A stretch of DNA of 64,000 nucleotides from positions 558,001-622,000 of the forward strand of contig NW_004457703.1 in the NCBI RefSeq assembly GCF_000203815.1, read 5' to 3'. Under the pieces are notes generated by a model that ran no database searches, had not been told where the DNA came from, and worked only from the letters and a program-made list of their open reading frames with translations. This DNA is from Cavenderia fasciculata. Its lineage: Eukaryota > Evosea > Eumycetozoa > Acytosteliales > Cavenderiaceae. Of this stretch, positions 23,924-64,000 are shown piece by piece (position 1 is the first letter of the stretch; every line of letters starts with the position of its first letter). A program made the translations under genes and the position numbers.

Positions 23924-26900
23924 ATGAAAGCACTGATATTATTATCATTGCTATCGAGTGTGATGAGTGTCACCATTATTATGGCTCAACCAGAGGTCAT
24001 TTATACCGAATCAACCATTCAAAAGAACTTTGTTGTTATGAGTGTCTATGCAAATAGTGCTTGTAGTGTTGGTGGTACTCCAACAGGTCTGCCTGAAAAG
24101 ATTGTTTCGTTTATGCCAAATACTTGTTACAACTATCCCACGTTTAGTGTCAATGTCTCTGTTTCAACAACCAACCAATATTCATACCAATTCTACACAC
24201 TACTAGGTTGTTATCCACAATCTGCAAGCAGTATAGCAATCCCTACCATGCCATCAAAATGTATTATCACCGATAACACTGGTACCACCCCTTCACCTCC
24301 ATGGATGACCTTTTACCTTGGTCCTCCACCCATTCCAACGTTGACAGGGCTATCATCAAGTTTATATTATGAACGTTTATCAACTACCATTTCGTATGTC
24401 TTCTCTCCCCTATATATATATATATATAAATGTTAACAGTCAACAACTACTCGCACTAATATAATATCTTTGATTATTATTTATTTTATTATTTAGTACT
24501 TGTAATATTACAAATATAAATAATTATCAAAATCAAAGAGTTGTTATTTTACCAAATACATGTACTTTTAGTGATATGCGATCCGGGTCTATCAAGTCGC
24601 TAGATGGAACAGCATCGAGCATTCAACTGGATACCAATTGTGCTGGAGGATCACCTGTTACCTATCAAAGTCAATGTCCACCGACGTTGGATGGTCAAAG
24701 GATTATGAGTGCCTTTAAAAATGGGTTGATTTCAACTTCCAATCCAATCCCATCCGTTACATCCTACACTACTGTAGGTGTGTCTAATCTGAACTTTGGG
24801 TATCCTTTGGGTACAACCATTTTTGCAAATGTGACTTGGTTGTCATCCAATGGATCATCATGGAATCAACAACCAGGTTACATCTATAAAATGTCCGATC
24901 AAATGTATTTCCCTTCTCCACACGTTAATTTCACAGGTTACCTTTTGTTTGTTCAAAATGGTTTAAATTATGTCCTCAACAAACCAAATTCAATTGAATT
25001 TAAAACTTCACAATTTCATATCCCTCCTTGTAAGTAAATTAAAAAATATATTTATTTATATATATATATATTTATTTATTTTATTTATTTATTTAATAGA
25101 TCCAAAAATGAAGAGTATTTCAACTACATTGATAACTACAAGAAAAATAGAATTTAATTATCAATCAGAGGGAGGATTTGTTGGTCAAAACTTGTATGGA
25201 ATTGTAGTAGTAGTGTTTCCTGGTGGTGTGGTTGGTGGAGTATATGATCAATCTACTTGTCCACCAGTTGGTTGTGTACTGAATGATTTACCAGCTGGAT
25301 CAGGCATCTCTATCAAGGTAACGGTCAACAATACGTTTGCGACTAATTTGATGCAGAAAGATGTTATGCTTGCACTGCCAATCGAAACATTTGATTTTAC
25401 ATTGACTATTGTATCAGATACCGTCGAGATTGGTTTCGTCTACTTGGGATATGGGTATGGTCCAAGCACCAGTGGCCTCTTGATTGAATCTAATGGTGTC
25501 AAGTTGGTAGACATCTCTTCTATCCTCACTGCCTCTTACATCTATTCGTACAGTTCAACTACCCCCACCATATTCACGGTCACTTGTAATGGTACCAATG
25601 ATGGAACTACTTTGAATGCTCCATCACAACAATTTATATCAAAAGGAGGTACGTAAAGTTTATCAATCTTATTATTAATATATTTAATTTAATTTTTAAT
25701 TAATTTTTTTTATTCTTTTAGATTTTAAATTAAATAATGTTACGATTGAATGGGTTGGTCTTACAAGAGCAATGGTTTCATTTGGAGCAGAGGGTTTAAA
25801 CCCTAATTATACTTTGTATATTGATTCAATGGATGGTTCTTCTTGGACTGAAAAGAATTCATTACAATACCTCATTACACCATTAGTTGCTTCAACATAC
25901 TACCAGTTTGAGGCCTATATTGAAGACACTGTGACCACCCTCAGAACTGATTCAATTATTTTCAACTTGACCACTGTTGTCAGTTACCCACCCATTACCA
26001 ACTTTACAATCACACCTTTCCAGTGATTAAATTCAAATGGGACAAACAATGCCGAATTTACATTCTTTTCTCTTGGAGGAGAACCAAATGCAACCATTTA
26101 TACATGGACTACTGATTATCCAGTTGTAACGGATAACTATCAAAATAACATTTACACTATATACAATCCCATCATTCCTAGTGGTCCCTTTAATATGGAT
26201 GGGTATGCTGATAGTGTTCCCTATTCAGAAAAAACAAATTTAATCTTTTCATTATACAATTGTATGTACTCATATAGAATAATAATTTAAATCAAAATTA
26301 TATAAATAATATTAATTAATATTATTTTTATAGTCCCATCTTTAGAGGCAAATGTATCAGCTGAATATGAATCTGTTTTAATTCAGTGGAATAGTACTGG
26401 TGGTGTACCTGGTAATATTACCTATCAAGTATCAAGTATTCCCTCTGACACCAGAAATTCGCCGTATGTATGGTGCAGTGGAATGAATATTAATTCATGT
26501 CTCATCACTGGATTGGTATCACAAACAAATTATTCATTTGAAATTCAAATGTCATCAGTTCAATTTGATCCATTTGTTAAAATAATTAACACTCAAACAA
26601 AACAATGTATGTTTTATATTTTTATATTTTATTCATTAAATGTTAACCTTTTTTATTTATTATTAATAGATCCAAATAATGTAACATGTGTTGATTATAA
26701 TAATGGAAATAGTCAAGTTGATTGTAATGGTCATGGTGAATGTATTGACAGTACTTGTTTATGTGATGATTCAAGAACTGGTATTTATTGTGAAATCGTT
26801 ATTCCAGGTGGAAATGGAAATGGAACAAATGGTGGTGGTGGAGGAGGATCAACAATTGATCCAATCTGTTGGCATTGCAACTCTGATGTTTCCATTAAAA

Positions 26901-26950
26901 TTAATAATTTTTTTTTTTTTCATCAAAAGCACAACCCAGATATACACTGA
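23924..26950 (+). pseudogene. ComC-like surface protein, copy 1, truncated with internal stop
   Basis: Follows the array's six-exon plan: 23924-24393, 24497-25029, 25100-25648, 25722-26261, 26334-26606, 26670 onward. Exon 1 gives a signal peptide (MKALILLSLLSSVMSVTIIM) and the Cys-rich head motif PEKIVSFMPNTCYNY. The following beta-sandwich modules and the EGF module (CVDYNNGNSQVDCNGHGECI) are well preserved. Two lesions are visible. A TGA at 26024-26026 interrupts exon 4 in frame. From about 26864, directly after the EGF linker GGGGGGSTIDP, the sequence stops resembling its paralogues and the frame ends at 26950, so the supersandwich domain and TM helix are absent. All phases otherwise agree. 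It is nearly identical to copy 7 (53111-56835) through exon 5 and the EGF, indicating a recent duplication or conversion. Confidence 0.8.
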
Positions 26951-27198: not shown

Positions 27199-29899
27199 AT
27201 GAATAATAATAATAATCATCATTGTATAAATAGATTACTAGTACTATTAGTAGCGCTAGTTGTAATAAACAACAACATTAGTCACAATACTATTGGAGTA
27301 GAAGCGCAATCAAGAAAGTAGCCGTACCGCTCCCCTCTTTTTTTTTTTTTAAATAGTACTATTTATCAAATGTCTTGATGACTAATGTAACTACTTTCTT
27401 TTTAAATAGAAGGTCCGATTTATATTACAGCCAAACGACTCGTAAATTACAACACTATCAATGTGTCTTGGGTAATTGATCCACCTGGTCATGGTCCAAT
27501 CACCGTCCTTTTCAATGTTTCACAATCAAACTTGAGCAATGTCACTCGCGATACCTTCACTGATAACAGGTCTTGGGTCAATTTTCCGGTTGGCCTAGAT
27601 CCTGCCAATTATACTTTTCATATTACAGCTGTGAATGAAGGAACAACTAGATCAAACTCTCTTTTGGTCCGATGGCTTGGTCGTATGTATTTTCTATAGA
27701 TTAAAAAAAGATATTTAATAATTAATAATTAATTAAATTTATTCTTTTTTTTTTTTTTTTTTTTTTGAAAGCATTGATAATTAGTCATTCAGAAATTACA
27801 AAAACTACTACAAATAAGATTCAAGTTACATTGGAAGTGGTTGGAAGTGATGTCCATTATTTTAAATTAAATATTACCGTAAATAATATGATGACAACAA
27901 CAAATTTTCCAGTGATCATGGAAGGGCCAGATTTCTTTGTTGTTCAAATTGAAATGCCAGAGAGTGCAACGACCCCTGTCAGTATAGTTGCTTTCGATGA
28001 TGATGGCCGTGTTTCCAACACTGTATATTTCGACGCGACAACCTACCCAGTCATCTCGAATCTCTCGTTGCAAGTTCTTCAAGTGTACGACGCTGGGTAT
28101 TTTATAGTGACGGCACACCATGATGGAGGTGTACCAGGTGATACTTATTATACATTTGGCTTTCGATACTCATCCCAGACACCCGAAAAACAGAAACACA
28201 ACTCTACACTCTATATCTTACCAGATGACCTCACTGTCTCTTACCCAATTAACATTACAATTGATAATGATCTAAAAGTATTATTTATCTCTACTGTAGA
28301 GACCGAAATTACCTTTTATAATTGTAAATATAAAAAAAAGAAAAAAAAGAAAAAGAAAATGAATATCTTAATTAATTAATTTCTTTTATTTATATTCATG
28401 ATTTAGTTCCAACTATAAATTCAACCAATTCAACAAGTGATTATGAATCAATTTATTTGACATGGATTAGTGATGGTGGAATGCCAGGTAATATTACTTA
28501 TCAAGTATCTGTATCTAATCCAAAATCAACGATTCAAGTACCATTGATTTGGTGTTTAGGTTCGAATATTAGTTCATGTCTCATCACTGGATTGACTTCA
28601 AATACTGAATATTCTATTGAAGTTCAAATGTCATCTGTTCAATTCTTACCAATTAATCAAACTATTTTTGTTTCAACTTTACAATGTATGTTAAGAACAA
28701 ATCAAATTAATTAATTATTTAATTAAATATTAATTGGTTATTGTATTTAATTTAGATCCAAATAATTATACATGTATTGATCGTCAAGGAATTAATAACT
28801 CAGTTGAATGTAATGGATTTGGTGAATGTATAAATGGAATATGTCGATGTGTGAATAATAGAGTTGGCATTTATTGTGGCACAGTTCTACCTTTTTGTGG
28901 TGGAAATGGTGATGGTGGAGAAGAGGTAGCAGATTATCGGGTAAACAGTCACGTCGAACCATCACCAAACAAACCCAAAGCAGTTGTCAACAATGCAGAT
29001 ATATTTTATCAATTTGTTGTTTCACAAATTAGAGAATTAGATATTGACCAAAATATTATCAAGTCATTGGATTTAACAACTCTCAACTGGACAATGACAA
29101 ATCAAACCAATCAACCAACATATCACCTTTAATTTTACTTAATAATTGGTTTTATTCAACATATAGTAATAGTAATAGTAATAGTATTTATAGAACAATT
29201 AAAATTACATTTTTACAATATGTACAACAAGATGAAGAAGAAGAAACAACTCCAACTTCAACTCCAAAAGACATTCCAGTTACATTTGCAGGTCAATTAT
29301 TTTATGTTACAGTTGGATCGATTAAATATACAATTGATATTGAAGGTTGGAATTTTGGTAGTCAATTAAATACTCTTGAATTGGTTACCAATATCACTCA
29401 ACCATACAATGATAAAGATCAAGACACGACCATCGTCAACAACAATATAGTATCAACCAACTCTACCGATTTCACATCGTTTGTAATTGGAACCGATCAA
29501 TTAGTTTTAGGTAAATTAATTAATCGTGCATTATTGGATGATATTCCTCGAAAGGTATCGAATCGAATTGTTTCAGTACCACTATCACCCTCCAGTTCCT
29601 CATCCTCTTCTGAATCTCAACAACAAATGTTATACAGTATTATTACAACGATACCATACTTTAATCTCAATGCTGTATTTGATCCAGAGCTTCAATTATT
29701 GGTCAAACCAAATGACCGTTCGTCATCATCATCTTCATCAAACTCATGGAAGATTGTTGTTGGTGTAGTAGTTGGTTTTGTTGTTGTGGCTGCAGTCTCT
29801 GTGGCCACTATATTCTACAGAATCAAAATGAATACTCAAAGACGAGATTCTATTAGCAGGCAAGAAAGGTTCAGAGCATTTAGCATAAACAACAACTAA
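27199..29899 (+). pseudogene. ComC-like surface protein, copy 2, internally deleted and frameshifted
   Basis: ATG at 27199 opens a signal peptide (INRLLVLLVALVVINNNISH) that stops at TAG 27319-27321 after GVEAQSRK. The sequence then resumes in the middle of what is exon 3 in the paralogues (27411-27682), followed by exons 27772-28323, 28407-28685 and 28756-29899. The whole Cys-rich head and first sandwich module are missing, and no phase-correct splice joins the signal peptide to 27411. The EGF and linker are intact. At about 29120, 5 nt are missing relative to copies 8 and 9 (CCAACATATCACC against CCAACAAATATATCACC), shifting frame and giving TAA at 29130. The supersandwich domain, TM helix (IVVGVVVGFVVVAAVSVATI) and basic tail persist downstream in frame. 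Confidence 0.8.
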
Positions 29900-30170: not shown

Positions 30171-33100
30171 ATGTATTATAATACTCAAAATAGAAGAATA
30201 CTTTATATTACAAGTATAGTAGTTTGTATTTTAATTAATTTCAGTTTACTATGGGACTCGGTCGGTGTGATGGTAGTGGAGGCTCAGCAGCAGCCCACAT
30301 ACACCCCAACCCCTAAATACAGTCTTGCTACCACCCCATACCCTGTCACTTTCAAACATTATAGCACTCTAGGATGCACTGGAACCCCTATGAAGGTAGT
30401 TTCATTGTACCCAGGTGAATGCATGCCTTATTACAATAATTTTTTTGTGACACTCATCGATGTGGGTGGGTTACTCGGTGACGAGTGATTGCATCATTCC
30501 CATCTTTTCAAGGCCAAAACCGCTAGTTTGCACATTTTGGTCTGAAATGGATGCCTATGTCATGGCGACTACTGATGTTCCCATCATGCCCGTTCCATCA
30601 GATACAGTTGGTTATTTATACTATGAAAAATATTCAAATCAATCGTATGTTTAAATTAATATAATTGAAAAGAAATCATTGAAATAATAATATTAATATT
30701 TAATTAATTAATATTTGTTTTTAGATGTAATATTGATACAGATATGACACTTAAATATTCGAGGACAGTTGTAACACAAAACTTATGTGTTTCGGATGAT
30801 GTTGGATCAAAGGTTAGAGCACTTGGAGGAACCAGTTCATCGATCCAGTTAAATATGACAGCATCACTTGATTGCGTGACGTCATCTGATACACGAACCT
30901 ATACAACTGGATGTCCAGTGACACCAGACTCTTATCAAATAGTCAATGCCTTTGCATCAAAGAGTGCATATACTAAAGTGAACCCTACCATCACAGTCAT
31001 TGGATACAAAGATATACTCATTGAAAACGGATCGTTTGGAACAGAGCCAGCATCAGTCTTCGCATTCATCTTATGGTTTAATTCACAGATGATACAGATT
31101 GGATCAGATTCCAGTATTTACAAGATGAGCAGTCAAATGGTTGTCTCTATCGGTGGATTCCCAGCTGCCACTCCAATGTACATTAAATTAAAGTCCTATG
31201 GTATGGACTTCTCCGGTGCTCCAATAGAAATTATCTCACAATCTTTAATTCAATTTCCAGATGGTAAGTAACTGTGTAAAACAAATCAAATCAAAAAAAA
31301 TCAAAACAAACAAACAAACAAACAAACAAACAAACAAACAAACAAACAAACAAACAAACAAACAAACAAACAAACAAACAAACAAACAAACAAACAAACA
31401 AACAAACAAACAAACAAACAAACAAACAAACAAACAAACAAATAATAATTAATTTTTTTTTAAATTATATTTATAGTACCAACCATTTCACAGTTAACTC
31501 CAAGTTTAATAACTACTAGAAGTTTTACAGTCACATCAACTTTACAAGGTGGATTTATCGGAGAGAATGTTTTTAAAGTAACAACTTCGTATTTAGGTAC
31601 CATTTTTAGTCCGAGTTGTAATACGACCAATATTTGTACATTGAGTGGGTTCCCACCGGGTGTTGATGTCAGTCTCACGGTTAGAGTTACCAACAGAGGA
31701 CGAGCGGCTACTTCTAGTCTTTTAGTTCCCCTCATGGAACCAATCACCAATTTAGAGATTGACAGTGTAGTTCGCATTCCAGCTGGTATGAATATTTCTT
31801 ACTCTCTATCTGGTGGAATAGGAACCTACTACCTAATCTCTATTACCAATTTAAGTACCACTGGTGGTAATCCAGTCACATTCAATACAACCAATTCATA
31901 CTTGCTATACAATACTACAATCACTGCCAATTATTCAATCGTCGTTGATGCTTTCGATGATGGAACTCATCTATCAACTCAAACTACCTATGAATATAAT
32001 TATAGTATGTAAAAAACATAAACAGAAAACATCCATTAAATGAATGAATCATTTTAAATTAACTAATTGTTTTTTTATTTTCTTTTAGATTTAAAAATGG
32101 AAATTCAAATTATTGATATTAGAACTACAAAAGTATACTTATTGCCAATTGTTAAAGGAGTGATACCAAACGTTTCAACTAATTTTACGGTTAGTTTGAA
32201 TGGTATTGCTGATCCAATTGATTATACCGATTTTGTAGAGTTTTCGTTATCTACGCTACCAGACACACTCAACAAAGTTTGTATGTTTGCAGTTGACGCC
32301 AATCTTAGAAGTTCACCTAGTACATGTATCCAATTCAACTCGTATCCAACTATTGGCGATCCGTCGGCCATTTATACGCAGAGAATGAATCTGTCCAACG
32401 CTCCACAATTCTATTCAAATGGATGTCAATACTACTGGAGGTGTTCCAAATAATTCAACCTATACTCCCACTTTTACTTTCCTAGGTAAAGTTGTCAGTC
32501 CCCCAACATCCAGTAGTATCCTACTCAATGGAATAACAATTGCATCCAATACCTTTAATATCAATGTAACCATTGTAAATGATATTACAACTTTATTATT
32601 TCAATCTTCATTTAAACTTTATTCATGTAAGATAATCAAAATTAATTATAAATATTTAATGACGAATATATTTATTAATCTTTATTCTATTCTTTATTTA
32701 TTTTTTAGTCCCAGGAATTATTGAATTCAAAAATATTGTAGATTATGAAACTGTTAATTTAACATGGGTGGGAATGGGAGGTATGCCAGGTAATATCACA
32801 TACCAAGTATCTATATTCAACCCAAATGCAACTGGTCCACAACTCGTATCAAATGTTGTTTGTAATGGACTAGGTATTTCAAAATGTAGTGTCACTCGAC
32901 TGACTTCAAATTCATACTATGGTTTCACTCTTAAAATGTCGTCTGTTCAATTTGATCCAATTGAATCAACTATTTATGTTCATACCTTAACTTGTAAGTA
33001 AATTAAAAAAAAATATAAATATTTAAATATTAATTTATTTTATTGTTCTTTTTATAGATCCAAATAATTATACATGTATTGATCATCAAGGTATAAATAA

Positions 33101-34154
33101 TACAGTTGAATGTAATGGATTTGGTCAATGTATAAATGGTACATGTTTATGTGTGAATAATAGAATTGGAATTTATTGTGAAACTCCAACAACTGATCAA
33201 GGAGGAAACAGTGGTAATGGAACCAATGTAGATCCAAACCCATCGGTTCCAGAGATTGTTATTACCAACTCGAATATATTCTATCAATTTGTAGTCTCTC
33301 AAATCAGAGAGGTCGATGTTGACGATCATGTTATCACCAACTTGGATCTAACCACTTTAAATTGGACTTTAAAAAATGAAACGACTACTCTTAATAACTT
33401 GGTTACAAGTTTTTGGAATTATTCATCAGTTGCAACCAACACAAGTATAAAGTATTTAAATGCCATTCATATCAACTTTATACAAATTAAATATCAAGAT
33501 GACACAAATATTAATGGAGAAGAATCAAAGATACCATTAACATTTGCAGGTCAATTATTTTATATTGATGTTGGAGCTATCAAATATACAATTGAAATTG
33601 ATGGTTGGCATTTTAATGGTAGATTAAATACACTTCAATTGGTAACAAATGTAACTCAACCAGAGCAAGTTGATGAATGTGGTGATGGTAGTGGAAGTGT
33701 TGACTCTGCCGACTTGGATATTCAATTTAATGGAAACATTGTAACAAACTCTACGGAATTTACATCATTCTTTGTTGGAAAGGATCAAATGATTTTGGGT
33801 AAATTATTGAATCGTGCACTATTGGATGATATCCCAAGAAAGATTGGATACACAGTTGCACCATATACCAACCCATCCAACCAACAACAGATGCTCAGTA
33901 TTGTAACACTCATCCCTTACTTTACATCCAATGCTGTCATGGATCCAGATCTCTCTCTTTTAATCAATGTCGACAGTGGAAAGAATGAATGTTCTTCACC
34001 GTCGTCCAACACTTGGAAGATTGCTGTCGGTGTGGTTGTTGGTGGTGTTGCTGCTATTACCATTGCTACAGCATCTATCATGTATTACAGAAAGAAAATG
34101 ACCTATGTAAAGAATCAAAAAAAGATGGAAGCAAAATTAAAAAATTTCAATTAG
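30171..34154 (+). CDS. ComC-like surface protein, copy 3, two frame breaks
   Basis: Six exons: 30171-30644, 30725-31263, 31477-32004, 32089-32626, 32709-32993, 33058-34154. A signal-anchor-like start (ITSIVVCILINFSLLWDSVG) precedes the Cys-rich head. Sandwich modules are followed by the EGF (ECNGFGQCINGTCLC), a GNSGNGTNVDPNPS linker, the supersandwich domain (IPLTFAGQLFYIDVGAIKYT, ..GKLLNRALLDDIPRKIGY), a TM helix near the end (WKIAVGVVVGGVAAITIATA) and a Lys-rich tail. Two positions need a one-base correction to keep homology: about 30465-30478 in exon 1 and about 32400-32418 in exon 4. All splice phases otherwise agree. Whether these are true mutations or assembly errors cannot be told here. 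The predicted product is a type I membrane protein with many N-glycosylation sequons. Confidence 0.75.
31304..31440 (+). repeat. (CAAA)n tetranucleotide microsatellite in intron 2 of copy 3
   Basis: More than thirty nearly perfect CAAA units between the GTAAGT donor (31264) and the TTTATAG acceptor (31476). The repeat makes this intron about twice the usual size. Open frames across it (KQTN, FVCL) are repeat artefacts. Confidence 0.95.
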
Positions 34155-35103: not shown

Positions 35104-38100
35104 ATGATAACAACAACACACAGAAGCTGTACCAGCAGTACTGTGAAAAGTCATCATCATTTTATTTTAATTTTTTATTTATATTTTTGTGTGGTTGGTG
35201 TGGTAGTGTAACTTCACAGCCAACGTTTGTTGAAACTAGTAGCATACTAACAGCAGAGTATGTAAACGTAGCAATCTATCAACAACTAGATTGTAGTGCG
35301 TCGGGTCAACCCAAGGCTGCATCAGTCCCACAAAAGGTCGTCTCCTTCTTACCCGATCAATGTTACCAATACGATGTAAAGAGTGTCAAGGTGTCAGTAT
35401 CGGCTAATAAACCATACATGATCACATACAACATCTACAGTACATCCGACTGTTCTCTCGCACCTCTTGCCACAAACTACAATGATGGCGTGTGTGCTGC
35501 CCCGTACCAAGGTGTTGGCAAATGGGCTTATTTCAAGGTCGGTCCACCTCAATCAGCTTCGTCTAAAGGTTCAACTCCTCCTTTTCTCTATTTTGAAAAG
35601 ATTGCTACTACTTCGTATGTACATTTGTATTAAGTTATAAAGAGAGAGAGAGAGAGAGAGAGAGAGGATGAGAGGATATAGAGTAGATATATTAACTTTT
35701 TGATTTACTTTATATAGTGTTTGTGAAGGAATAAGTAATAAGACATATTATAATGCAAGAACTATGTTGTCGATTGGTCAATGCACTTATAATGACTATA
35801 GTGATTTCGTTGTACAAGGAGTTAGTGGTGATGCAACCTCTATCACCTTTGCAAATGATGTGTCTATTTGTACGGGTGCTGCAACTATGTATTACGGTGG
35901 ATGTAATATATTGGGTCCGCATCGTATTGCAAATGCATTCCTAACTGCTACTACGCCGACCACCAACGAAGGCTACGTCGAAGCAGTATCGTACACGGCA
36001 ATCAATCTGACCAACCTCGACTTTGGATACAATCTTCACAGCAAGTCGTTTGGATCGATTGTCCTCGTACCATCGGTTGGCTCACCCGTTGACTACAAGC
36101 CAGGCTACTCATTTATCATCTCCAAAGATATGACATTTATCAACTTGCCAAACCCCTTTCAAGGTCTCATTAGAGTATACCAAGATTCATTTGATTATAT
36201 CAAAAATACCTCTATCCCATTTATTAAAACAAATTCTTTTTCAATGCCTCTATGTATGTACACATAACAACTAAAAGTATTTATTTATATTGTTATTAAT
36301 TAATATTTATTATTTATTTATTTATATTATTTAATATTTTAGATCCAACAATAAATCAATTTGATATAGTTTCGGTGACAACTGATACAATTCAAATTAA
36401 TTTTACATCGATTGGAGGATTTAATACGGATGGTGGTAATGTGTATCAAGTGACTACTCAATCACCGGGATCGCAAACATGGGAGTGTTTGCCTGCCACT
36501 GTGTGTACTTTGGACGGGTTGCCAATTGGGGCAATGGTCTATGTCACTGTCAAGGTTACCAATTTCGGCCAGTCCCAAGCTAAAATACAACAGGTCCAAT
36601 TAAAGTCAATCATTAGTAACTTGGGCTTTGACCTCGTTCCCTCGTACAAGGCCATCAATATTTCATTCACTCTGGGGTCAATAGGAGAAGGACCAGTTAC
36701 CTATACAGCAGATATCACAGATCTAACTACCTCGACTACTCGATCATCAACAACATCTACACAATCCTATATTGTATTCCCAGCTTCATCAACACCAACC
36801 AATTATACAATTAAAACATCTGCTACCAATAGTGGAACAATACTTAATTATTCAAGAAATTTTATTTGGTTAGGAGGTAAACATTTAAAAAAAACAAAAT
36901 ATTAATATTTATTATTAATATTTAATATTTATTAATTTTAATTTCTTTTCTATTTTTTTTTTTTTTAGATATTAAATTAAATACAACATTCAATCCAAAT
37001 ACAGTTGCAATTAAATCACTTACAGTATATAATAATGTTAGCAATCTTGCCAATTCAACTTCATATGTTGCTTATTTTTATGATGGTGATGTGCTTGTTT
37101 ACAATGTTACCAACAAAACTGCATATTTAAAGATTGATAATTTACGAGCAGACACAAATTATAATCTTTCATCGTTTATCGTTGACCCATTGACATCTCG
37201 TCGTTCCAATATCGAGTACGTCGTATTCAAAACCTATGCCAACTTGTCCAACTTTGAAGTTGCGGTCACACAACGAAAGAATGAAACTGATGCAACCAAA
37301 ATTTCATATACCTTTGTCATGACTTGGTTAGGTGGATCGCCACTGCTTTCTTTTGCTCATCCCTCCATGAATTACTTCCCCGGTACTGGTGGGGCTCTAC
37401 TCAATACCAATGTTAGTAATATAGTGATTGGAGTTAATATCCCCTTTCCATTTGCTGATAACCTATATTATGCTGCTCTCACAACTGCTCAAGATAATAT
37501 CCGTCTCGATAAAAAGGTATTCATAAATTATTTCCCTTGTAAGTTAAATAGTAAAAAGAAAAAATTTAAAAATTATAAAAAAAGTACTTATTAACTAATC
37601 AAAATAATAATATTATTATTATCTATTATAGTCCCAAATATTACATCTTTGGATTTTACAACAGGACATGATACTGTAAATTTCACATGGGCAGGTATTA
37701 ATGGTGTCCCAGGTAATATTACCTATGGATTATCGATTTTTAACCCTCTTACTCCACAAGTAGCTCCATACACCTTTTGCATTGCATTGAATCTTGGTTT
37801 TTGTAATGTGTCTGGTTTGATTCCAAGCACCGATTACTCATTTACATTAACAATGAAATCTGATCAATTTGATCCTGTGACTCGTTCAGTCTCTGTTCAA
37901 ACTATTCAAAGTAGGCATATAAAAATATTAAATAATCAAAATAATTAAATATTAATTTATTTCTTATTATTTAGGTCCAATTAGTCCATGTATGGATTTA
38001 AAGCTTGGAGCTAATAATACAATTGATTGTAATGGATTTGGTCAATGTTTGAATGGTACATGTTTATGTGTGAATAATAGAGTTGGTATTTATTGTGAAA

Positions 38101-49415: not shown

Positions 49416-52357
49416 AACAATATTTATGATATTATTTATTTTATAAACCGCTCCAACAACTACTCCAACTATAATTTTCCATTTGTTTTTGTCTGATCCT
49501 GATCCTGATCCAGAATCATTATTTGATGTTTGTGGATATGGAATGAATAATAATGATGACGATGAATAATTTCCATTTGTAACTGATACAGAGATGGTTG
49601 CAGGACCACTGATTAGTATTTGATCGAGTGTACAATTAATAAATGTCAGTGTTGTTGTTGCAATGACACAATTGATTGTATTATTGATCAATACACTTCC
49701 ACCGGTTGAATTGTTTCCAAAATATCCAAATAATAAAAGTGTTTGATTTGATTGTAAATTAGCTGATGTTATAATAGTATCTATAAAATGGAGGGTGAGA
49801 ATTAGGGAAAAAAGTCAAAAGATGATTGATGAATAATTGATATATATTACTTACCTTTGATAATAATGATACTAGAATCAACAAAGGATTGTGATTGTAA
49901 TGAGGTAAAGAAATTGATATCCATCATTGTATCAAAATTAAATGGTGATGGAATAGTATATATTGCTTGGCATCCTGTGAAACAATATTTTGAATTGATT
50001 GATTGTAGAGATTGTAAACTATTTCCAACATTTACATTTGGTGGATATTTTGGAGTAGCATAATCATAATTTACAATCATCTCTTGATTGGTTTGAAGAT
50101 CCAATGTAACATTATTGACTGAAAAATCAATACATGTTACATTCACCGGTGCCCAAATATTTGGACGAACTGAAAATACAACTTGTACATATTGAGTAGT
50201 TCCTCTTGGAATTTTAAAATGATTTCCTCTATAGAAATAATACAATAATGAATATCACAAGAAAGAAAAATCAATGAACAAACATTGTTTATCTCGAAAT
50301 AATTACACTACTATTCTATTGGCCACTACAAGATCTAGATAAAAATCACCCCAACCTATATTATTACCAACAATCGTTACACTTTGATTGACTGAAAATA
50401 GTTCAGTACTTTTCAATTGAGGACCTATAAATATATATATATATATTTAGATGATTTCGATTAGATTTTGATATAATATTTTTTAAAGACATCATGATCT
50501 TACCAGGACAGTCAATGGATGAAGGTTTGGTAAGGGATGTTGCGAAATTTTTGTTCTTTATACCATCGTAAAAACACCACCAGCAATCTGGAACTGAACT
50601 AATACTAGTGTTTGTAATAGACAAAATATTGACATGACATGATTCCTCTCCAATAATACCTTGAATGAATGGATTATATGCCACTGCAAATTCTCTAATA
50701 TTTGGATTCATTGCAAAGAAATTAGATGGAATAGTCCCTGAAAAATTATTATTAAAATATAAACCTTGTCTAGAAGTAAAGAAAGGTAAATAAATAAATA
50801 ATAACTTATAAAAAACAATGGATAAACAATACTAAATATGATAAATTTGTTGGGAGAGGTTTATCAAATGGAAGGGTTCCGCTCCCGTCATACATTAAGC
50901 TAAAATAAATTAAATAATGATTATTTTCTATCCTTTTGCAGAAAAGAAGATTAAAGAACTTCATCAACTTACAGACTTTCTAAATTTTTCATTTCTCCAA
51001 AAATACTATCTAATGAAAGGAGGGGGATGTAGCCATACTAATAGTTCTAAAAGTAATTGGATAATTAATTTGGTAAGTATAGATAAATAAATATTCATTT
51101 TTTTCCAACAAGAATGTATTTACAGTGATTTAATCGAGTTTGGGTATGAGAATATAGGATTGATAAAACCACCAGATGGTTCTCCACTATTCCAATTATC
51201 AGAATAGATATCATCATCTGTTGGGTCACTGTCAGAGTAGATTTTTGTATGCGATAAGCTAATGAGTGGGGAATCAACTTGAATGGTTAGGACTTGGTTT
51301 GGACTAATGCTCAATGATAATATTGTCCTAAAAGTAAGAAAATGAATAAATAAATGAATATTGGTTTGTTGGTTGGATGGTTGGGGATGGATTTGATAAA
51401 AAGATAATTACAAATTTTGAAGATTTGGAAATTGTTGTTGACTAAATTGATAGGTAATGTTTGATTGGTATTGATAGAATTAGTTCGACACACGAACTGG
51501 AAGAGATTACAGAATCTATTAGTTTTGGCGATGTCAATGTAAGAGATTGTAAAGTAGGGGAATTGAAAAATACTGGAATCGATGTCAGGTTGTAACACTC
51601 TTGACATCTCCTAAAATATAATGAATGAAGAATGATCATTGGTTTGTTGTTAATAAAGAAATTTTTGTTGGTGGAATTAATCAACATACAAAGTTTTGAG
51701 ATTTGGAAATGCTTGATTGAAATAGACTGGAATTTCAGTAACTCTATTATCGTTCCAAAATACTAGACTTGTACATTTTGGATAAGTACTATTGAAATAA
51801 TCTAATGGATTGATACCTGGATTACGAGTGGCTGGGGCTCCGCCTCCAATAAAAATACTTGTTACTTCAGGGAATATAAATTGAGTGATTGATGAGTTTA
51901 AAGTCTGAACATTATAATTTGCCCATAAATTCCTATTATAAAACGACACTTAATTATTAATAACAGAAAATAATTGATTGGTTCTATTCAATTGTTATAC
52001 TTTAGTATGATTGTTGCACAATCTTACAATTTTGTTATATGTTTTTCAGATCCTATTACTGAGCATTGAAACCCTAGCGAAGTAGTGCTACAAACATTAT
52101 TTTCATTTGTCACAGCTGGTTTCAATTGATAAAATTGACTTAACCATATTGCTGAATTCACTATGAGTACAAAGAAAGTAATAAGATAAGATGATTTAAT
52201 TTATGTTTAATATCAGTATATCAGATATTTACAACATACGTTGATCGATTGGGAGTGTCTGACCATCAACTAAATAGTGTTTACTAGAGTAATGTGATGT
52301 CATCACAAATGAAATCAACACCAAGGTGCTTGATAATAAATATTGAAAGAGTTTCAT
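49389..52357 (-). pseudogene. LRR and TIG-domain membrane protein gene, decaying
   Basis: Eleven exon-like segments on the minus strand: 52357-52240, 52160-52028, 51932-51690, 51610-51412, 51327-51124, 51046-50973, 50899-50833, 50769-50504, 50424-50307, 50228-49855, 49780-49389. Exon 1 is a signal peptide (MKLFQYLLSSTLVLISFVMT). Exon 2 is an LRR N-cap (NENNVCSTTSLGFQCSVIGS). Exons 3-8 are leucine-rich repeats with phase-2 introns at each repeat (TEIPVYFNQAFPNLKTL; NNNFSGTIPSNFFAMNPNI). Exons 9-11 look like TIG-type sandwiches (SVTIVGNNIGWGDF) followed by a Ser/Gly linker and the start of a TM helix (KWKIIVGVVVGAV) that breaks off into unrelated sequence. Frame conflicts in exons 4 and 6 and a misplaced donor after exon 7 argue for a pseudogene. 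The architecture resembles Dictyostelium adhesion proteins. Confidence 0.65.
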
Positions 52358-53029
52358 ACAAATAACAACAATATTATTGGTAGAGAGGATTGATAAATAG
52401 AATAGCACAAACAAAATAATGGTCATCATTGTCTTGTGTTTGTGATTTATCTTTTGAAATTTCAAAATGTTTTTAGGGAACATTGCCCATTATGAATGAT
52501 AGTCATCATCATTTTCTATATATGGCAAAACAGTGAACTGAGTTTGATCCATAAAATATCTCAAAAAATATCATGAGAAAATGATTCTTTTTTAATCTTC
52601 CAAATTTATTTTCTTGTTCTGACAATGATAACATTGTTACTTTAGTTTCCTAAATTTAAAAAACTTTGAGATGAATAATAATGATCTATTCCATGGTTGT
52701 TGAATTGGTGTTTGTTAGTTTAACTATTAAACAACTAAATTGGACCAGATCTCAATTCTCCCCCAATCTTTTGCATTTTTTACACGTATTAAATCAATAA
52801 AATAAATCTATCAACAATAGAGATAATAGAATATTATTTACTTCACCGTTTAAAAGGTGATGAATTTCATTGTTCGTGATCATGAATGTCTCAGGGGTTT
52901 TCCCGGATTTGAAAAAATTAAAATTTTAATTGTTTTTTTATTCGTCGCCGTTTCGAAAAACGCTGAGATTTATCTCAATGCAATTGGACGAACGAAATTT
53001 TAGTTGATGAACCATTCTATCTATCACTA

Positions 53030-53110: not shown

Positions 53111-56100
53111 ATGGAGAATAAAATGTTTTACAAAAACAATGCAATCGCAGTAGCAGTATTATTTTTAATGTTTATATTATCAATAATATCTAATCATCGA
53201 GTAGCAGCACAAGAAACAGTACTATCAACCCAAACAAAGGATTTTGTGACAATGATAATCTATGCAAACACTGATTGTTCATTGGGTGGACTTCCCACAC
53301 AACCTCCACTCAAAGTAGTTTCATTCAGTTTCAACACTTGTTACAGCTACGGAACATTCAGTGTACAGATACAAAATATTCAACCTTATTTCTACACTAC
53401 CTACGATCAAATCAATTGTGGTGGTGCCATTGATAACATTGCTTTTGACCAATCGACAGGTAAATGTATCAAATCTGACGCATCTGCTACACCATATTGG
53501 TTGGTTTTTAAAATCGGGCAACCTCAAACACCATACATCTTATCATCATCCTATTTATACTACCAAAGAGTCCCCACTACAGTTCTGTATGTTTAAACTA
53601 TACCATCAAAAAAAACTGGATTTATATTTATATAATTTTAAATTTCTTTTCTAATCTATCATTTATTCTACTCTTACATACTAAATATATAGTACATGTA
53701 ATATGGCAGTGACTACCAATTACGACTATCAAAGAGTTGTTGCCAAACCTAGTAGTTGTATGATGAATGACTACCCAACAAGAACTATGTTAACCAATAC
53801 TGGAACGGTTTCACGAGTCACTCTAACACACAATCCAACAGGTTGTACTGGAGGTACCAGCTCTAATTATGGGTCATTTTGTGCAGCACTTGATTCATCT
53901 CGTATCGCCAATGGAATGGTGACTTTTTCGTCGCCATTGCCTGATCCCTCAGTAAATGTAGTCACCTTTGGCCGTATATCAATCTTGGAACCTGCTTATG
54001 GTTTAACAAACGTTGCATTGTATGCACATGCATCTTGGCAAGCTGCCAATGGTACATCCTGGGATCACAAACCTGGATATGTATTCATGTTGGACAACAA
54101 TATGTATTTCAATGCTCCAATGAATTTCACAGGTCATTTTATCTTGACAATCGATGGATACAATTATATTCAAGATAAAAATATAACTACTCTTGTATCA
54201 TCTGAATTTTATTCACCTGATTGTAAGTCCTGCAAAATATTATAAATTATCCGATATTAATATTAATATATTTTATTTCAAATTTAGATCCAAAAATTCA
54301 ATCTATAAATATAATAGATGTAACAACAAAGAGAATTGAATTCAGTTATGACCCAACTGGTGGATTCCCAAATCCCCTATTTGATATTGAATTGTTGGAT
54401 GACCAAGGTACTATTTTGATGTTTGATACCGGTTCAAATTGTCCACCTGTATATTGTGTATTTGATATGTTACCAAAAGGCATAAATGTGACAATCAAAG
54501 TAGAAATGACTGATATAGCAGGTTTTGTCGACACATTGTCAGTAACGGTCAACCTAGTAGATCCAATATCAGCATTCAATTTTACTCTGACTCCTCAATC
54601 ATCTCCTTATCCTTCTGTCAACATTTCATTCCAATACACTGGAACTGGTTTTGGAGGATGCACAACATGTCTTTCAATTATAGACACTCGAACCAATACT
54701 CAACAATTCACATCCTCGTCCCTCTCAACCTCATCCTATCTCTTTGGACTCTTGTCACCATCACCAACCATTTACAACTTTACTGCCAACGGTACAAATG
54801 ATGAATTAACTCTTTATCCACCTTCTCAACTTTATACTTTTATTGGTTGTATGTATTATTTGTCATTTTTTTAATTAATTAATTAATTAATTATATTTTC
54901 TTACTGTCTCTCTTTATAGTGAATTTTGGTATAAAAAATGTTACTATTCAATCAATAGAGATTACATCGGCATCAGTTTTATTTGGAGTTAATGATATCA
55001 ACCCAACTTTTTCTTTAATTATTACCGATCTGGATTCAACCATTTCAGTACAATCTTCAAATACTTTAGAGTATAATTTCACAGAATCCCTATAAGCAGG
55101 TGCTACTAATCGATTTAGTGCACTCTTGAGGGACACCTTTACAAATGTTGAATCAAGTCTATTTTATTTCAATATGACCACCTATCCTCTATTGTCGGAT
55201 TTTACAATCACTGTATCCCAAAAAATCAATTCATCCGATCCTAATAGTAACTATTTAGAGATTAGATTCGATTCGATTGGAGGTGCTCCCAATGCAACCA
55301 ATTATGGGTACACTTCAGACTATCCTAAAATTTTAAAAGGAAATTATTCTGAATTGGGAGTATTTACAGATGCCAACCCTATTCTTCCCAGCGGACCTTA
55401 TTCCATTACAGGTCAAGCCAATAATACTCAATCCATTCTAACAACAACCACAATATTCTCTTTATATAATTGTAAGTATATAAATCAACAAGAAAAAAAG
55501 AGGTTAATTAAAATGAAGATTTATTAATCTTTTATTTTATATTTATAGTCCCTTTAATCAATGTAACAGGATCAACTGAATTTGAAACAGCCCTTATTGA
55601 GTGGAATAGTACTGGTGGTGTACCTGGTAATATTACCTATCAAGTATCGAGTATTCCCTCTGACACTAGAAATTCGCCGTATGTATGGTGCAGTGGAATG
55701 AATATTAATTCATGTCTCATCACTGGATTGGTATCACAAACAAATTATTCATTTGAAATTCAAATGCTATCCCCAATATTTGATCCAGTTGTTTTAAATA
55801 TCGACTTGCAAACTAAAAAATGTAAGATTAAACTGTTAAGTTTTAAAATAATAATAATAATAGCTAATTAATTATTTGATTGATTTATTGTTAATCCTAT
55901 TCCTTTTTTATTTATTATTAATAGATCCATATAATGTAACATGTGTTGATTATAATAATGGAAATAGTCAAGTTGATTGTAATGGTCATGGTCAATGTAT
56001 TGACAGTACTTGTTTATGTGATGATTCAAGAACTGGTATCTATTGTGAAATCGTTATTCCAGGTGGAAATGGAAATGGAACAAATGGTGGTGGTGGTGGA

Positions 56101-56835
56101 GGATCAACAATTGATCCAAATCCAGGGATCCCAGAAATTATAATCACCAATGACAATTCATATTATAAATTTGTTATATCACAAATTAGAGAGGTCGATA
56201 TTGATGATCAAATAATTAAACTGATCGACCTAACATCATTCAATTGGACACTGTCCAATCAAAGCAATCAAGCAACATCAATATCACCATCAATTGTTGT
56301 TAATTATTGGAATTATTGAACATTACCAAAAGTAAACACCAACTTTAATTCAATCAATATTACATTTTTACAATTCAATAATACTAAAGATATTAATCAA
56401 GGAGATAAGAAGATTCCAATCACATTTGCAAGTCAAACATTTTATATTGATATTGGATTACTCAAATATACAATCGATATTGATGGTTGGGAATTTAATA
56501 GTAGATTAAATACTCTTCAATTGGTCACCAACGTATCTCAACCAATTATTGATTATGGAGAGTGTAGTGATAAAGAAAATGATGATGGATCTTTTAATAA
56601 TATTATCAACAATGCCACTGAATTTACCTCATTCTATCTTGGTAAAGATTCAGCAGTATTGGGTAAATTAATTAATCGTGCATTATTGGATGATATTCCA
56701 AGAAAGATATCTTATAGAGTTGAACAAATTCAAGTTACTGGAGAAGAAGAACAATTGAGTGTCATCACACTTGTTCCCAATTTCAACAGTCGAGCCACCC
56801 TCGATCCAGACATGCAATTGTTGGTAAAGAGATAA
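53111..56835 (+). pseudogene. ComC-like surface protein, copy 7, two nonsense codons and lost TM
   Basis: All six exons in phase: 53111-53586, 53693-54222, 54288-54848, 54920-55471, 55549-55821, 55925-56835. Signal peptide (NNAIAVAVLFLMFILSIISN), Cys-rich head, sandwich modules and the EGF (DCNGHGQCIDSTCLCDDS) are recognisable. A TAA at 55093-55095 (exon 4) and a TGA at 56317-56319 (exon 6) interrupt an otherwise perfect frame. The chain then ends at MQLLVKR-stop (56833-56835), just before where paralogues have the TM helix, so even without the stops it would not be anchored. Nearly identical to copy 1 over exon 5 and the EGF/linker. Substitution-type stops with intact phase suggest fairly recent inactivation. 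Confidence 0.82.
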
Positions 56836-58308: not shown

Positions 58309-58423
58309 TAAAAAGCAAAAAATTGAGAACAATAAATAAATAAATAAATCTATCAATATATGATTATTTTCTAACATTTTTCTTTTTTATTTAATTAATT
58401 GTACAATGATTTAATGGAATATT

Positions 58424-60839
58424 TTAACACTTTTGGAGGATTTTTTGGCTGTATCTTCTTGATAATTCTAGTAACTTTAACCTTAATTGTAAACGAGCCT
58501 TGTACTTTTTTTCTTTATCCATTTTGATTTTATAGATAATAGTGGCAATCGAAATTGAAATCAAAGTAGCAACACCAATGACTACACCAACAATAATCTT
58601 CCATTTTTTTGATGGTGTTGTCAAAAATTGGTTAATGGTATCAACATTGATCATCAATTGAAGATCTGGATCAAATACAGCATTAAGATTAAAGTATGGT
58701 ATCGTTGTAATAAAACTGTAGGACATGTGTTGTTGAGATTTTTCTTAGAGTATTCAATTCGATTTGATATCTTTCGAGGGATATCATCCAATAATGCACG
58801 GCTAATTAGTTTGACCAATATAAATTGATCATTTCCAATTAAAAATGATGTGAATTCTGTAGAGTTGGTTGATAATATATTATTGTTGTAATCTTCTTGT
58901 CCACATTTATAGTTGTATGGTTGAGTTATATTGGTAACCAATTCAAGAGTATTTAATCTATTACCAAAACTCCAACCTTCAATTTCAATTGTATATTTAA
59001 TCGATCCAACTGCCAAATAAAATAATTGACCTGCAAATGTAACTCGAATGTCTTTTGGAGTTGTTTCCTCTTCTTCTTCATCATCCTCCTCTTCTTGTTG
59101 TTGTACATATTGTGAAAATGTAATTTTAATAGTATTGTAGAAAGAACCATCACTATTTGTTGAATATATCCAATTATTAAGTAAAATTAAAGGTGATATG
59201 TTGGTTGGTTGATTGGTTTGATTTGTCATTTCCCAGTTGAGAGTTGTTAAATCCAATGACTTGATAATATTTTGGTCAACATCGAGTTCTCTAATTTGTG
59301 AAACTACAAATTGATAAAATATATCTGCATTGTTGGTGACTATTTTTGGGTTGTTTAGTGATGGTTCGACGTGACTATCCCAATCCCTTCCACCATCACC
59401 ATTTCCACCACCACCACCAGGTTTTACAGTACCACAATAAAGTCCAACTCTATTATTCACACATCGACATGTTCTATTCAAACATTCACCAAATCCATTA
59501 CATTCAATTGTATTATTAATTCCTTGGCGATCAATACATGTATAATTATTTGGATCTAAATTAAATACAATAATTAATTATTAGTCATTGATTTTTAATC
59601 AAATTTGATTTTTGTTATTTTGCTATTTTTTTTAATTTACTTCATACGTTGTAAAGTTGAAACTAAAATAGTTTGATTGATTGGTAAGAATTGAATAGAT
59701 GACATTTTAATATCCACAGAATATTCAGTATTTGAAGTCAATCCAGTGATAAGACATGAATTAATATTGGCACCTGAACACCAAACCAACGGTACTTGAA
59801 TCGATGATTTTGGATTGGATACAGATACTTGATAAGTAATATTACCTGGCATTCCACCATCACTAATCCATGTCAAATAAATTGATTCATAATCACTTGT
59901 TGAATTGGTTGAATTTATAGTTGGAACTAAATAAATAATTAGAAAATGAAAGAAATAGAATATAGCTCTTCTTCCTATTCTTTTTTTTTCTATTTACTTA
60001 CAATAATAAAAGGTAATTTGAGTATAAAGGGTTAAATCGGTACCATCATTATTAACCATCAAGGATAAATTTTGAGGATCAGTGACAAAATCTGGCATGT
60101 AATAGATGATACTGCCGTTATACATTGTCCTTGGTAGATAATTGATTGTAGACCATAATGAATAATTCGAATCACCTGGTACACCTCCATCTGAGTGCCG
60201 TCAATTCAAGATACCAATCATTGGGATCGTTGGTTGAAAGGTCGTATGCTTGAAGAACCTGCTTTGTGAGATTCGAGATGACTGGATAGGTTGTCACTTT
60301 GAAATATAAAGTGTTGGAAACACCATAAAAATCATAAGCAACTAGCCCAACATTTGTTGTTGTCCCAGATGGTAGATTAATTGAAATTAATCGATTTGTC
60401 ACGTCACTAAACCTAACTTCGGTGTAGGTCATTGTATTATTTAAAGAAATGTTACAAAATACCATGCCATTCTCGCTTGGCACTGAAAATGTAAAATCAA
60501 CAATCTTTGTCTTGATGTTTAAAATTTTTGGATCACTAATAATTAAAGCTAAACAAAAAACAAATACAATAGTATTAGATGAAAGATAATGAATAAATGG
60601 ACCAGTTCATTGATTCTAATAGTAATACCTACGGTCTAAATATTTATCAAATCAAGTTTGAATAAGAGGTGAACCAATATATAGCCAACATTTTGATTTG
60701 AAGATTAGAATCTACATTGTAACATACCTGTAGGAATTTGAGTTTGTCCGAATCCAAAACTATTGAGATGATTGTTGACTATTACTAGAACTAATATTCC
60801 AAATAATATTCGAAGTATATAAATAATACTGTTATTCAT
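58424..60839 (-). pseudogene. ComC-like surface protein, copy 8, exons 2-3 deleted, frameshifted
   Basis: Minus strand. Signal peptide exon 60839-60728 (IIYILRILFGILVLVIVNNH..GQTQIPT) ends in G|GTATGT. The next recognisable exon, 60548-60002, corresponds to exon 4 of the paralogues, so the Cys-rich head and the first two sandwich exons are gone. The splice remains in phase (G|CT). Exons 59926-59648 and 59555-58424 follow. Exon 4 loses frame near 60190-60205 (ELTAL..DGGVPGDS) and exon 6 near 58742 in an A-run (before SQQHMSYSFITTIPYFNLN). The EGF (ECNGFGECLNRTCRC), supersandwich domain and TM helix (WKIIVGVVIGVATLISISIA) are otherwise preserved. Confidence 0.8.
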
Positions 60840-61050: not shown

Positions 61051-64000
61051 TTAATTATTATTATTTATTTCTTGAAATCTTTCTTGTAAACGGACATTGT
61101 ACTGCTTTCGAGTATTCATTTTGATTTTATAAATAATAGTGGCTACAGAGACTGCAACCACAGCAGCAAAACCAACTACTACACCAACAACAATCTTCCA
61201 TGAGTTTGATGGTGATGACAAACATTGGTCAATAGCATCGACATTGATCAACAATTGAAGATCTGGATCAAATACAGCATTAAGATTAAAGTATGGTATA
61301 GATGTAATAATACTATATAACATTTGTTGTTGAGATTCAGAAGAGGAGGATGAAGATGAGTCTGAATCTGATAACACAACTGATACTATTCGATTTGATA
61401 CCTTTCGAGGAATATCATCCAATAATGCACGATTGATTAATTTGCCTAAAACCAATTGATCATTTCCAATTAAAAATGAAGTGAATTCTGTAGAGTTGGT
61501 TGATACCATATCGTTGATGGGATCTTCTTTTCCACATTTATCGTTGTATGGTTGAGTGATATTTGTAACCAATTCAAGAGTATTTAATTGACTATTGAAA
61601 TTCCAACCTTCAATATCAATTGTATATTTAATCGATCCAACTGCAACATAAAATAATTGACCTGCAAATGTAACTGGAATGTCTTTTATAGTTGCTTCCT
61701 CCTCTTCTTGTTGTTGTACATATTGTAAAAATGTAATTTTAATTGCTCTATAGGTTGAATCTTTTGAACGACTATATGTTGAATAAATCCAATTATTAAG
61801 TAAAATCAAAGGTGATATGTTGGTTGGTTGATTGGTTTGATTTGTCATTGTCCAGTTGAGAGTTGTTAAATCTACAGATTTGATAATAGTGTCGTCAATA
61901 TCTAATTCTCTGATTTTGTGAAACGACAAATTGATAAAATATATCTGCATTGTTGATTATGACTTTTGGGTTGTTTGGTGATGGATCAATATGACTTCCT
62001 CCTCCTCCACCATCACCATTTCCACCACCAGGTTTTACAGTACCACAATAAAGTCCAACTCTACCATTCACACATAAACATGTTCCATTCAAACATTCAC
62101 CAAATCCATTACATTCAATTTTATTACTCATTCCTTGACGATCAATACATGTATAATTATTTGGATCTAAAAATAAATAAATAAATAAATAATTAATATT
62201 AATAAATTAAATTGAGATTTGTTTTTTTAATTTTCTACATACATTGTAAAGTTGAAACTAAAATAGTTTTGTTGATTGGTAAGAATTGAACAGATGACAT
62301 TTTAATATCCACAGAATATTCAGTATTTGAAGTCAATCCAGTGATGAGACATGAACTAATGTTTGAACCTAAACACCAAACCAACGGTACTTGAATAGAT
62401 GATTTTGGATTAGAGACTGATACTTGATATGTAATATTACCTGGCATTCCACCATCACTAATCCATGTCAAATAAATTGATTCATAATCACTTGTTGAAT
62501 TGGTTGAATTTATCGTTGGAACTAAATTAAAAAAAAAAAGAATTCTTAATTAATTATTATTATTATTTTTTTGTCTATTTACTTACAATAATAAAGGGTA
62601 ATTTCAGTATTAAGAGATAATGTTGTTTGATCATTTTCAAGTGTAATGGTCATTGGTTGAGGGATAGTGGTGATAAAGGTTGGCATGTAATAGGTGATTG
62701 AGTTGCCCTGTTTGCTGGTCGATTGTGATACGATAGGAGTCGAGTATGCATATGTAGAATCACCTGGTACACCTCCACTCGACAGTGTTGTCACTAAAAG
62801 ATACCAATCATTTGGATCATTGACAGTCAAGAGGTCGTATGCTTGAAGAACCTGCATTGAGATATTCGAGATGACTGGATAGGTTGTCACGTTGAGATAT
62901 ACAGTGTTGGACACACGACCAACGTTATCGTAAGCAATAAAACCAACGGTCGATGTTGTTCCAGATGGCACGCCAATTGTATATCCAGACCCTTCGGTAT
63001 AAGGAACCCCTGTATGAAGAATTTCATGATTTAGCGTAAAATTTAAAAGCACAGGACCATTATCTCCAGACAATGTAAATGTAAAAACAACACTCTTTGT
63101 AAGAGAAGACATTATTTTTGTATTACTTACAAATAATGCTTATAAAAATAAAAATAAAATAAAAAAGAAAGTTAAATTAATAAATTAATATTAAATTAAT
63201 TAAATAAGTATACATACAACCAAGCCATTGAAATGTAGAAGAGGTAGATTTAGTTGTACCATCATTTATAGCTGTTAAATGAAAAGTATAATTGTCGGGA
63301 TTTTGACCAACTGGAAATTCAAACCAAGTGATGTTTTTGTCAGTGAAGGAATGGAAAGTGAAATTACTAGAGGTTGTTTGTGATACATTGACAAGGACGG
63401 CGGTTACACCGTAACCAGGTGGATCGATTACCCAAGACACATTGATAGAGTTGTAAAGTGGTGTGGTTTTAAAGCTTGCTATGTCAATTGGAGGTAGCAA
63501 TGTAAATGGTTGTATATTTGTTGAACTTTGACCACGGTTGGTAACTCCAACAGACACAGAGATTATAGCTCCCACTGGCAAGTCATTCATGATACAAGTA
63601 GTGGTATACTGACACTCGGGATAATTGTATCTTCCAGGTCCCAAAGATCCAAACACAACATAAGTATTGGCATTTGGTGGATCATATCCACCCGATACAA
63701 CATAACTAATATTTAATGAACTAGTCGTTTTAGAATTTAAAATAATACTATCAATTATTGGTGCTAAAAAAATAATCAATCAATAAATAAATGAAATTAA
63801 TATATATTCTATTTCTATCTCTATTCTTTTTAGTTTAGCTTTGTACGTACTTGATGGAAGTATAAATGAATTTGATTTTAATGAAACCATTGTTGCATTT
63901 AATATATAGTCTGCTCCAAAAGGGTTGGCATAGATAGTCAAGTTTCCAGTGTATGGTATTTGATTGATGATCATGGCAACGCCCGTTGTTTTGTATATTT
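61051..64000 (-). CDS. ComC-like surface protein, copy 9, 5' end beyond window
   Basis: Minus strand; exons 62166-61051, 62521-62243, 63138-62587, 63763-63228, and the 3' part of exon 2 (from beyond 64000 to 63851). The N-terminal signal peptide and head lie outside the window. Visible: the end of the first sandwich module (GNLTIYANPFGADYILN), further modules, EGF (ECNGFGECLNGTCLC), Gly-rich linker, supersandwich domain (IPVTFAGQLFYVAVGSIKYT, GKLINRALLDDIPRKVSNRI), TM helix (WKIVVGVVVGFAAVVAVSVA) and tail. One extra A in the A-run at 61914-61917 (VSQ-IRELD) shifts frame relative to all paralogues; it may be real or an assembly error. Very close in sequence to copies 2 and 8. Confidence 0.8.

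Follow-up and report, generated by a model that had tools for sequence, protein, structure and literature searches.

A nine-copy array of ComC_SSD-type genes in Cavenderia fasciculata with divergent outer exons and mosaic last exons

The subject of this study is a tandem array of nine copies (g1-g9) of one gene type, predicted to specify membrane proteins with a ComC_SSD domain, in a 64,000-nucleotide window of the Cavenderia fasciculata genome (C13:558,001-622,000, contig C13 being NW_004457703.1). The outer exons of the copies are strongly divergent, while exons 5 and 6 carry mosaic tracts in which otherwise dissimilar copies are nearly or exactly identical. We regard it as a slightly better than even prospect that this is a receptor array in turnover, the last exons of which are exchanged by gene conversion and the outer modules of which serve variable cell partners; a recognition role for the array is plausible from the predicted proteins. 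A preliminary description of the window had proposed nine ComC-like surface-protein genes under birth-and-death evolution and a part in recognition; its observations were partly confirmed and its interpretation partly supported.

The nine copies and their mosaic exons

Gene models were made by spliced alignment against leave-one-out family profiles, with heavy penalties on frameshifts and stops, and bore out the count of nine, comprising eight SSD loci and g1, from which the SSD has been lost. The array runs from 23,924 to approximately 64,950 (window numbering), so that the extent given earlier was correct except that the 5' end of g9 lies past the window end. The earlier outline also needs amendment in that g8 and g9 are on the minus strand (g1-g7 are on the plus strand) and other genes lie inside the array (39,326-40,700 and 49389-52489). 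The copies are:

23924-26926, plus strand: g1, with exons 1-5 and, of exon 6, the EGF part, the SSD and transmembrane segment being absent; exon 4 interrupted by TGA at 26024
27448-29899, plus strand: g2, part of exon 3 and exons 4-6; exons 1-2 absent; frameshift near 29109
30201-34154, plus strand: g3, six exons; exon-1 break near 30468, exon-4 shift near 32415; start codon not located
35104-39056, plus strand: g4, six exons, open from the signal-peptide frame to the stop; 5' limit approximate
41247-45171, plus strand: g5, six exons, open over its full length (ATG to stop)
45492-49415, plus strand: g6, six exons, open throughout provided that intron 5 (48241-48321) is of the GC-AG type
53111-56826, plus strand: g7, exons 1-5 and the greater part of exon 6, without the transmembrane segment; nonsense codons TAA at 55093 and TGA at 56317
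58424-60550, minus strand: g8, part of exon 4 and exons 5-6; exons 1-3 absent; two frameshifts, near 60195 and near 58737; 5' limit approximate
61051-64000, minus strand: g9, six exons, 5' end past the window; reading frame shifted within a run of four A at about 61915

Mean pairwise identity among these copies was 30, 26, 28 and 24% for exons 1-4, as against 49 and 54% for exons 5 and 6, in keeping with the strong N-terminal divergence described before. The companion claim, that the exons from EGF to the transmembrane segment are simply conserved, did not hold, as synonymous sites show homogenisation between copies. Synonymous differences between g4 and g5 fell from 0.72 (0.67-0.77) in exons 1-4 to 0.30 (0.23-0.36) in exon 6, and those between g1 and g7 from 0.68 (0.64-0.73) to 0.20 (0.10-0.31). 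No such jump was seen between the dispersed copies on contigs C18 and C1 (0.60 and 0.63), or between g5 and its copy on contig C14 (0.29 and 0.26). Two mosaic tracts stand out:

38017-38916, plus strand: homogenised tract common to exon 6 of g4 and to g5 (44154-45038); 12 of 15 sixty-column windows are 0.85-1.00 identical, with flanks at about 0.4-0.6
26412-26851, plus strand: homogenised patches common to g1, in its exons 5-6, and g7 (55627-56106); identity is 0.97-1.00 in five windows, with diverged windows between

Identity between g4 and g5 climbs just inside exon 6 and drops again at the transmembrane segment, and that between g1 and g7 ends near 26864. Exact tracts of at least 30 nucleotides in non-sister pairs of the array fell in exons 5-6 in 23 of 23 cases, as did all 28 in the g2/g8/g9 group, two members of which, g2 and g8, are incomplete in exons 1-4; the bases available were 16,164 in exons 1-4 and 11,386 in exons 5-6. 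Inclusion of the three dispersed copies, and exclusion of the pairs within g2/g8/g9 and of g5/C14, gave the same confinement at 24, 30, 40 and 60 nucleotides. The longest exact runs were 119 nucleotides (g4/g5) and 99 nucleotides (g1/g7), and the exchange takes in broken copies.

Tree reconstructions gave g4 different partners in the two gene parts. Exons 1-4 (10 rows) placed it with C18 and C1, with an approximately unbiased (AU) test p of 0.0445 against g4+g5+C14, and exon 6 (9 rows) placed it with g5 and C14 (AU p 0.0285 against g4+C18+C1). Together, the 3' synonymous homogenisation and 5' divergence indicate that the membrane end has probably been recombined between copies and not merely constrained.

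A similar picture was found in other arrays of the genome. In the array at 2.09-2.10 Mb of C14, compared at the nucleotide level over four of its six units (the first with a shorter upstream part), SSD-exon identity was 0.85-0.99 in all three pairs slid and then dropped at the gene end, while more than about 350 nucleotides upstream of that exon it was 0.17-0.63 in two pairs; units 2 and 3, in the manner of sister copies, were alike upstream too (mostly 0.6-0.96). In five of the six pairs, all exact tracts of at least 40 nucleotides began no more than 218 nucleotides before the SSD match. The array at 0.20-0.24 Mb of C17 (five of nine loci compared) gave last-exon synonymous distances (dS) of 0.19-0.26 in four of its nine members, L021 being left out of this count for its short longest frame; likeness before the last exon was patchy, mostly 74-80% over 137-400 nucleotides. 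It is the weaker evidence because dS covers the last exon only and not the upstream part. A homogenised 3' flank in the C17 array was ruled out, as the loci were in contig orientation and the common block was the last exon.

Protein architecture, lesions and surroundings

The shared plan consists of a signal peptide, two N-terminal exons, FN3-type modules (in exons 3 and 5) and, in the last exon, an EGF-like stretch, ComC_SSD, a transmembrane segment and a short tail; the signal peptide, single transmembrane segment and tail of about 25 residues are putative, being read off the sequence. The ComC-like label was upheld by Pfam ComC_SSD (PF22933), which matched exon 6 of g4 at 40.5 bits (cut-off 24) and that of the C14 copy at 40.2 bits. 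EGF_2 fell below its cut-off of 22.1 bits in g4 (16.4) and the C14 copy (21.9), and exceeded it in L019, a member of another array (22.5). A search of the Protein Data Bank (PDB) with g4 exon 6 gave no convincing match.

The sandwich modules proposed earlier are supported for exons 3 and 5 as FN3-type, the former by structure match and the latter by Pfam. In exon 5, fn3 was matched in eight of nine members (best E 4.4e-5) and Tissue_fac in all nine, with member 1 giving fn3 at 21.8 bits, below the cut-off of 25. The Pfam scan of exon 3 gave no fn3 match, and a PDB search with the exon-3 profile returned solely interleukin-31 receptor chains (E 0.014-0.021). An AlphaFold model of exon 3, made from seven window sequences, had a mean predicted local distance difference test score (pLDDT) of 89.1, and its best PDB matches were tandem FN3 domains, such as those of neogenin and pikachurin, with template-modelling scores, normalised by query length, of 0.38-0.60 among the 50 matches listed. 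Exon 4 gave a single weak Fn3-like match (E 0.024) in five members scanned, exon 1 no Pfam family in the four copies scanned, and the exon 2 model was too poor for use (mean pLDDT 56.8). Introns 2-5 are in phase 1 in g5 and g6, according to model coordinates, so that exons 3, 4 and 5 could be recombined without breaking the frame.

No TIG module was found at C13:580-623 kb among 150 scored of 449 candidates, nor by Pfam in exons 1-5, although weaker copies under the cut-off are possible. TIG modules stand shortly before the SSD exon at C5:1635641-1639390, C5:828613-831405 and C4:143765-145873, the first of these with both in one open frame, so that TIG and FN3-type modules both occur with the SSD. 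Because TIG was not found in the array, though TIG-SSD combinations stand elsewhere, the array is best filed, on sequence criteria, in the ComC_SSD family with FN3-type outer modules and not as a Tgr cluster.

The six-exon plan described as common to the array is complete or nearly so in seven of the nine copies (g1 and g7 having a cut exon 6), and fails in g2, which lacks exons 1-2 and part of exon 3, and g8, which lacks exons 1-3 and part of exon 4. Two copies had been called fully open and the rest damaged. This is right for g5, and for g6 provided that intron 5, with the site AAGT|GCAAGT, is a GC-AG intron, as is likely; a frameshift first called in g6 was withdrawn, since such an intron accounts for it. 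It is wrong for g4, which has no lesion between the signal-peptide frame and the stop, and in which no in-frame ATG was found without assuming a further small 5' exon; such an exon is possible. Copies g1, g2, g7 and g8 are truncated and have in addition nonsense codons (g1, g7) or frameshifts (g2, g8). The lesions of g3 and g9 are small frameshifts only and possibly assembly errors, and the exon-1 break in g3 may alternatively represent an unrecognised small intron. The truncations, nonsense codons and inverted copies, along with a segmental copy of g5 and its neighbour gene on C14, agree with the birth-and-death evolution proposed earlier.

The family is large. With the last exon of g4 as query, a search of the 31.0 Mb genome (21 contigs; E ≤ 0.001; 115 scored of 307 candidates, making all counts lower bounds) gave at least 115 matches, or at least 113 loci once fragments were merged, of which 65 fall in 15 clusters. 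Exon 3 of g5 matched at least 10 places at E ≤ 0.001, six of them inside the array (g7 was missed by this search). Of six dispersed loci fetched, those on C18, C1 and C14 were modelled in the same way as the array, and three on C5 were dropped from all exon counts because their models were unusable, the outer parts being too unlike the queries. Over the part modelled, neither C18 nor C1 has a lesion, those apparent in a lax first alignment having vanished under leave-one-out profiles and higher penalties, and the C14 copy of g5 has one frame break.

The neighbour gene copied to C14 with g5 is:

39326-40700, plus strand: gene within the array, the scanned exon of which had no Pfam match; 12 genome matches

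Between g6 and g7, at 49389-52489 on the minus strand, are frames with weak leucine-rich repeat (LRR) matches, one of which has a membrane motif closely resembling that of the SSD genes. Left of the array (21087-23445, minus strand) are an O-methyltransferase dimerisation domain and a BadF/BadG-type ATPase domain. Contig C13 ends about 6.5 kb beyond the array and 7.4 kb after the window, and the region near this end (L031 5400-8417, beyond the window) contains a palindrome around tagctatcgactac as well as diverged repeats in two pairs, at 79-82% identity.

Mechanism and competing explanations

In the mechanism we favour, the tandem genes would encode type I cell-surface receptors, and duplication, inversion and deletion would expand and shrink the array, leaving broken copies behind. 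Gene conversion, or unequal exchange, would copy the last one or two exons (EGF-SSD-transmembrane) among copies and so hold the membrane anchor more uniform, while outer modules that had diverged would stop pairing and drift further. The phase-1 introns around exons 3-5 would permit in-frame exchange of modules. The outer modules may bind variable partners on other cells, in recognition or adhesion, with the uniform membrane end serving a common stalk or partner, and a modular outer part with a short tail would suit adhesion or partner presentation better than autonomous signalling.

Several observations weigh against this reading. The AU p values are near 0.05 and modest, and in the exons 1-4 tree, which has long branches, the branch joining g4, C18 and C1 has a support of 85/88. 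GC content at third codon positions (GC3) was 0.08-0.28 in exons 5-6 and 0.23-0.46 in exons 1-4 in most copies (C1 was little changed), so that GC-biased conversion is unsupported; in fugu protocadherin (Pcdh) genes, by contrast, raised GC3 is a sign of conversion, according to an excerpt of PMC1852091. Lower GC3 also implies a lower synonymous ceiling and earlier saturation in exon 6, and the claim of exchange is therefore based on the exact tracts and the most extreme pairs, and not on the 36 of 66 pairs in which synonymous intervals were separated between the gene parts. Since lesions are common, many copies may make no protein.

Selection likewise gave no sign of favouring change. The ratio of nonsynonymous to synonymous rates (dN/dS, by Nei-Gojobori counts) for g5 and the C14 copy, which are the closest pair in which a member is intact, was 0.16, 0.27, 0.32, 0.51, 0.61 and 0.16 for exons 1-6, the middle exons being fastest and the head exon among the most constrained; all point values are below 1, though the interval for exon 5 reaches 1.48. 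The pair is under purifying selection, with no sign of positive selection. The preliminary description had held that low polymorphism together with purifying selection on the ectodomains would speak against recognition, and to the extent of this one paralogue pair, which represents no polymorphism and includes a frame-broken copy, the second of these is what the ectodomain exons show. In the portion of a tgr study available (PMC12324515), strong positive selection was not evident at full-gene level, and recombination was cautioned to interfere with selection tests.

A possible, though somewhat doubtful, alternative is that function resides in g5, g6, perhaps g4, and the dispersed C18 and C1 genes, the broken copies being neutral by-products. 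The four truncated copies and the clean C18 and C1 models fit this view, as do the dN/dS values of g2/g8 (exon 4, 1.01; exon 6, 0.73), with g2/g9 likewise near 1 in exon 4, as expected of decayed copies. Stops or splits in the SSD match also occur in three of eight loci here, in six of 57 in other clusters and in two of 48 solitary loci (this array versus the rest, p 0.030, post hoc; clustered versus solitary, p 0.11). On its own, however, it leaves the exchange in exons 5-6 that involves broken copies unexplained. Less likely, the proteins could be feeding receptors with outer modules that bind bacteria or bacterial glycans, so that their diversity would track prey and not kin. FN3 modules, EGF and a short tail are compatible with adhesion to any surface, and LRR-like membrane gene pieces lie within the same array, but the Pfam scans of exons 1-5 showed no lectin or known pattern-receptor domain, and comC of D. 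discoideum is tabulated among developmentally essential genes in the accessible part of PMC4931340.

That the lesions are sequencing or assembly errors is improbable. It would suit the g9 shift in its run of A, the g3 break adjoining a run of G, and the C14 copy of g5, which is otherwise constrained and has just one frame break; it would not account for the truncations of g1, g2, g7 and g8, the nonsense codons without frame change in g1 and g7, or the absence of lesions in C18 and C1 when modelled by the same method. Purifying selection alone as the source of the EGF-to-transmembrane likeness, to which the low exon 6 dN/dS of g5/C14 (0.16) and g4/g5 (0.28) might point, is very improbable, and was rejected for g4/g5 and g1/g7 because the likeness extends to synonymous sites, with exact runs of up to 119 and 99 nucleotides.

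Comparison with known systems

In D. discoideum, comC has a developmental role in cell communication. As judged at the level of the Pfam family, comC resembles the array genes in having an EGF-like stretch followed by ComC_SSD, and differs in that the array genes are in tandem and carry FN3-type outer modules. The same table excerpt (PMC4931340) gives comC as confined to group 4. A limited literature search found no paper linking supersandwich to Dictyostelium, nor comC to lagC/lagD.

The likeness to the tgr locus drawn in the preliminary description applies to the behaviour of the locus and not to the protein family. The Tgr (Tiger) family, including tgrBC, likewise consists of membrane receptors, among which pseudogenes are numerous, some members are mosaic and rearrangement is local, but membership of the array was rejected because no TIG was found there among the candidates scored or by Pfam in exons 1-5, and recombination in tgrB1/C1 runs along the whole gene length, in the part of PMC12324515 available, while exchange here is in exons 5-6. 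If the outer modules are recognition surfaces, the array would represent a second sequence-defined family beside Tgr, and a model of how aggregating amoebae could gain recognition diversity without losing a working receptor, conversion holding one end uniform while the other varies; the genome has at least one other array in which the pattern is seen.

A broader and distinctly tentative idea, which we think unlikely, is that the loci, at least 113 in number, form a repertoire for Tgr-independent dictyostelid recognition, in which continuing conversion keeps the anchor exon (EGF-SSD-transmembrane) near-uniform within arrays, outer modules (of FN3 type in this array, and TIG with SSD at other places) are free to diversify, and broken copies act as donors, in the manner of clustered protocadherins or a silent-cassette archive.

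The closest parallel for the pattern itself is that of the fugu Pcdh genes, the paralogues of which show low similarity at their 5' and high similarity at their 3' ends, a pattern ascribed, in the excerpt of PMC1852091, to regional gene conversion because synonymous sites were shared. The fugu genes encode cadherin repeats and in some clusters are joined by splicing to constant exons, whereas those of the array are whole genes, each combining FN3, EGF and SSD modules.

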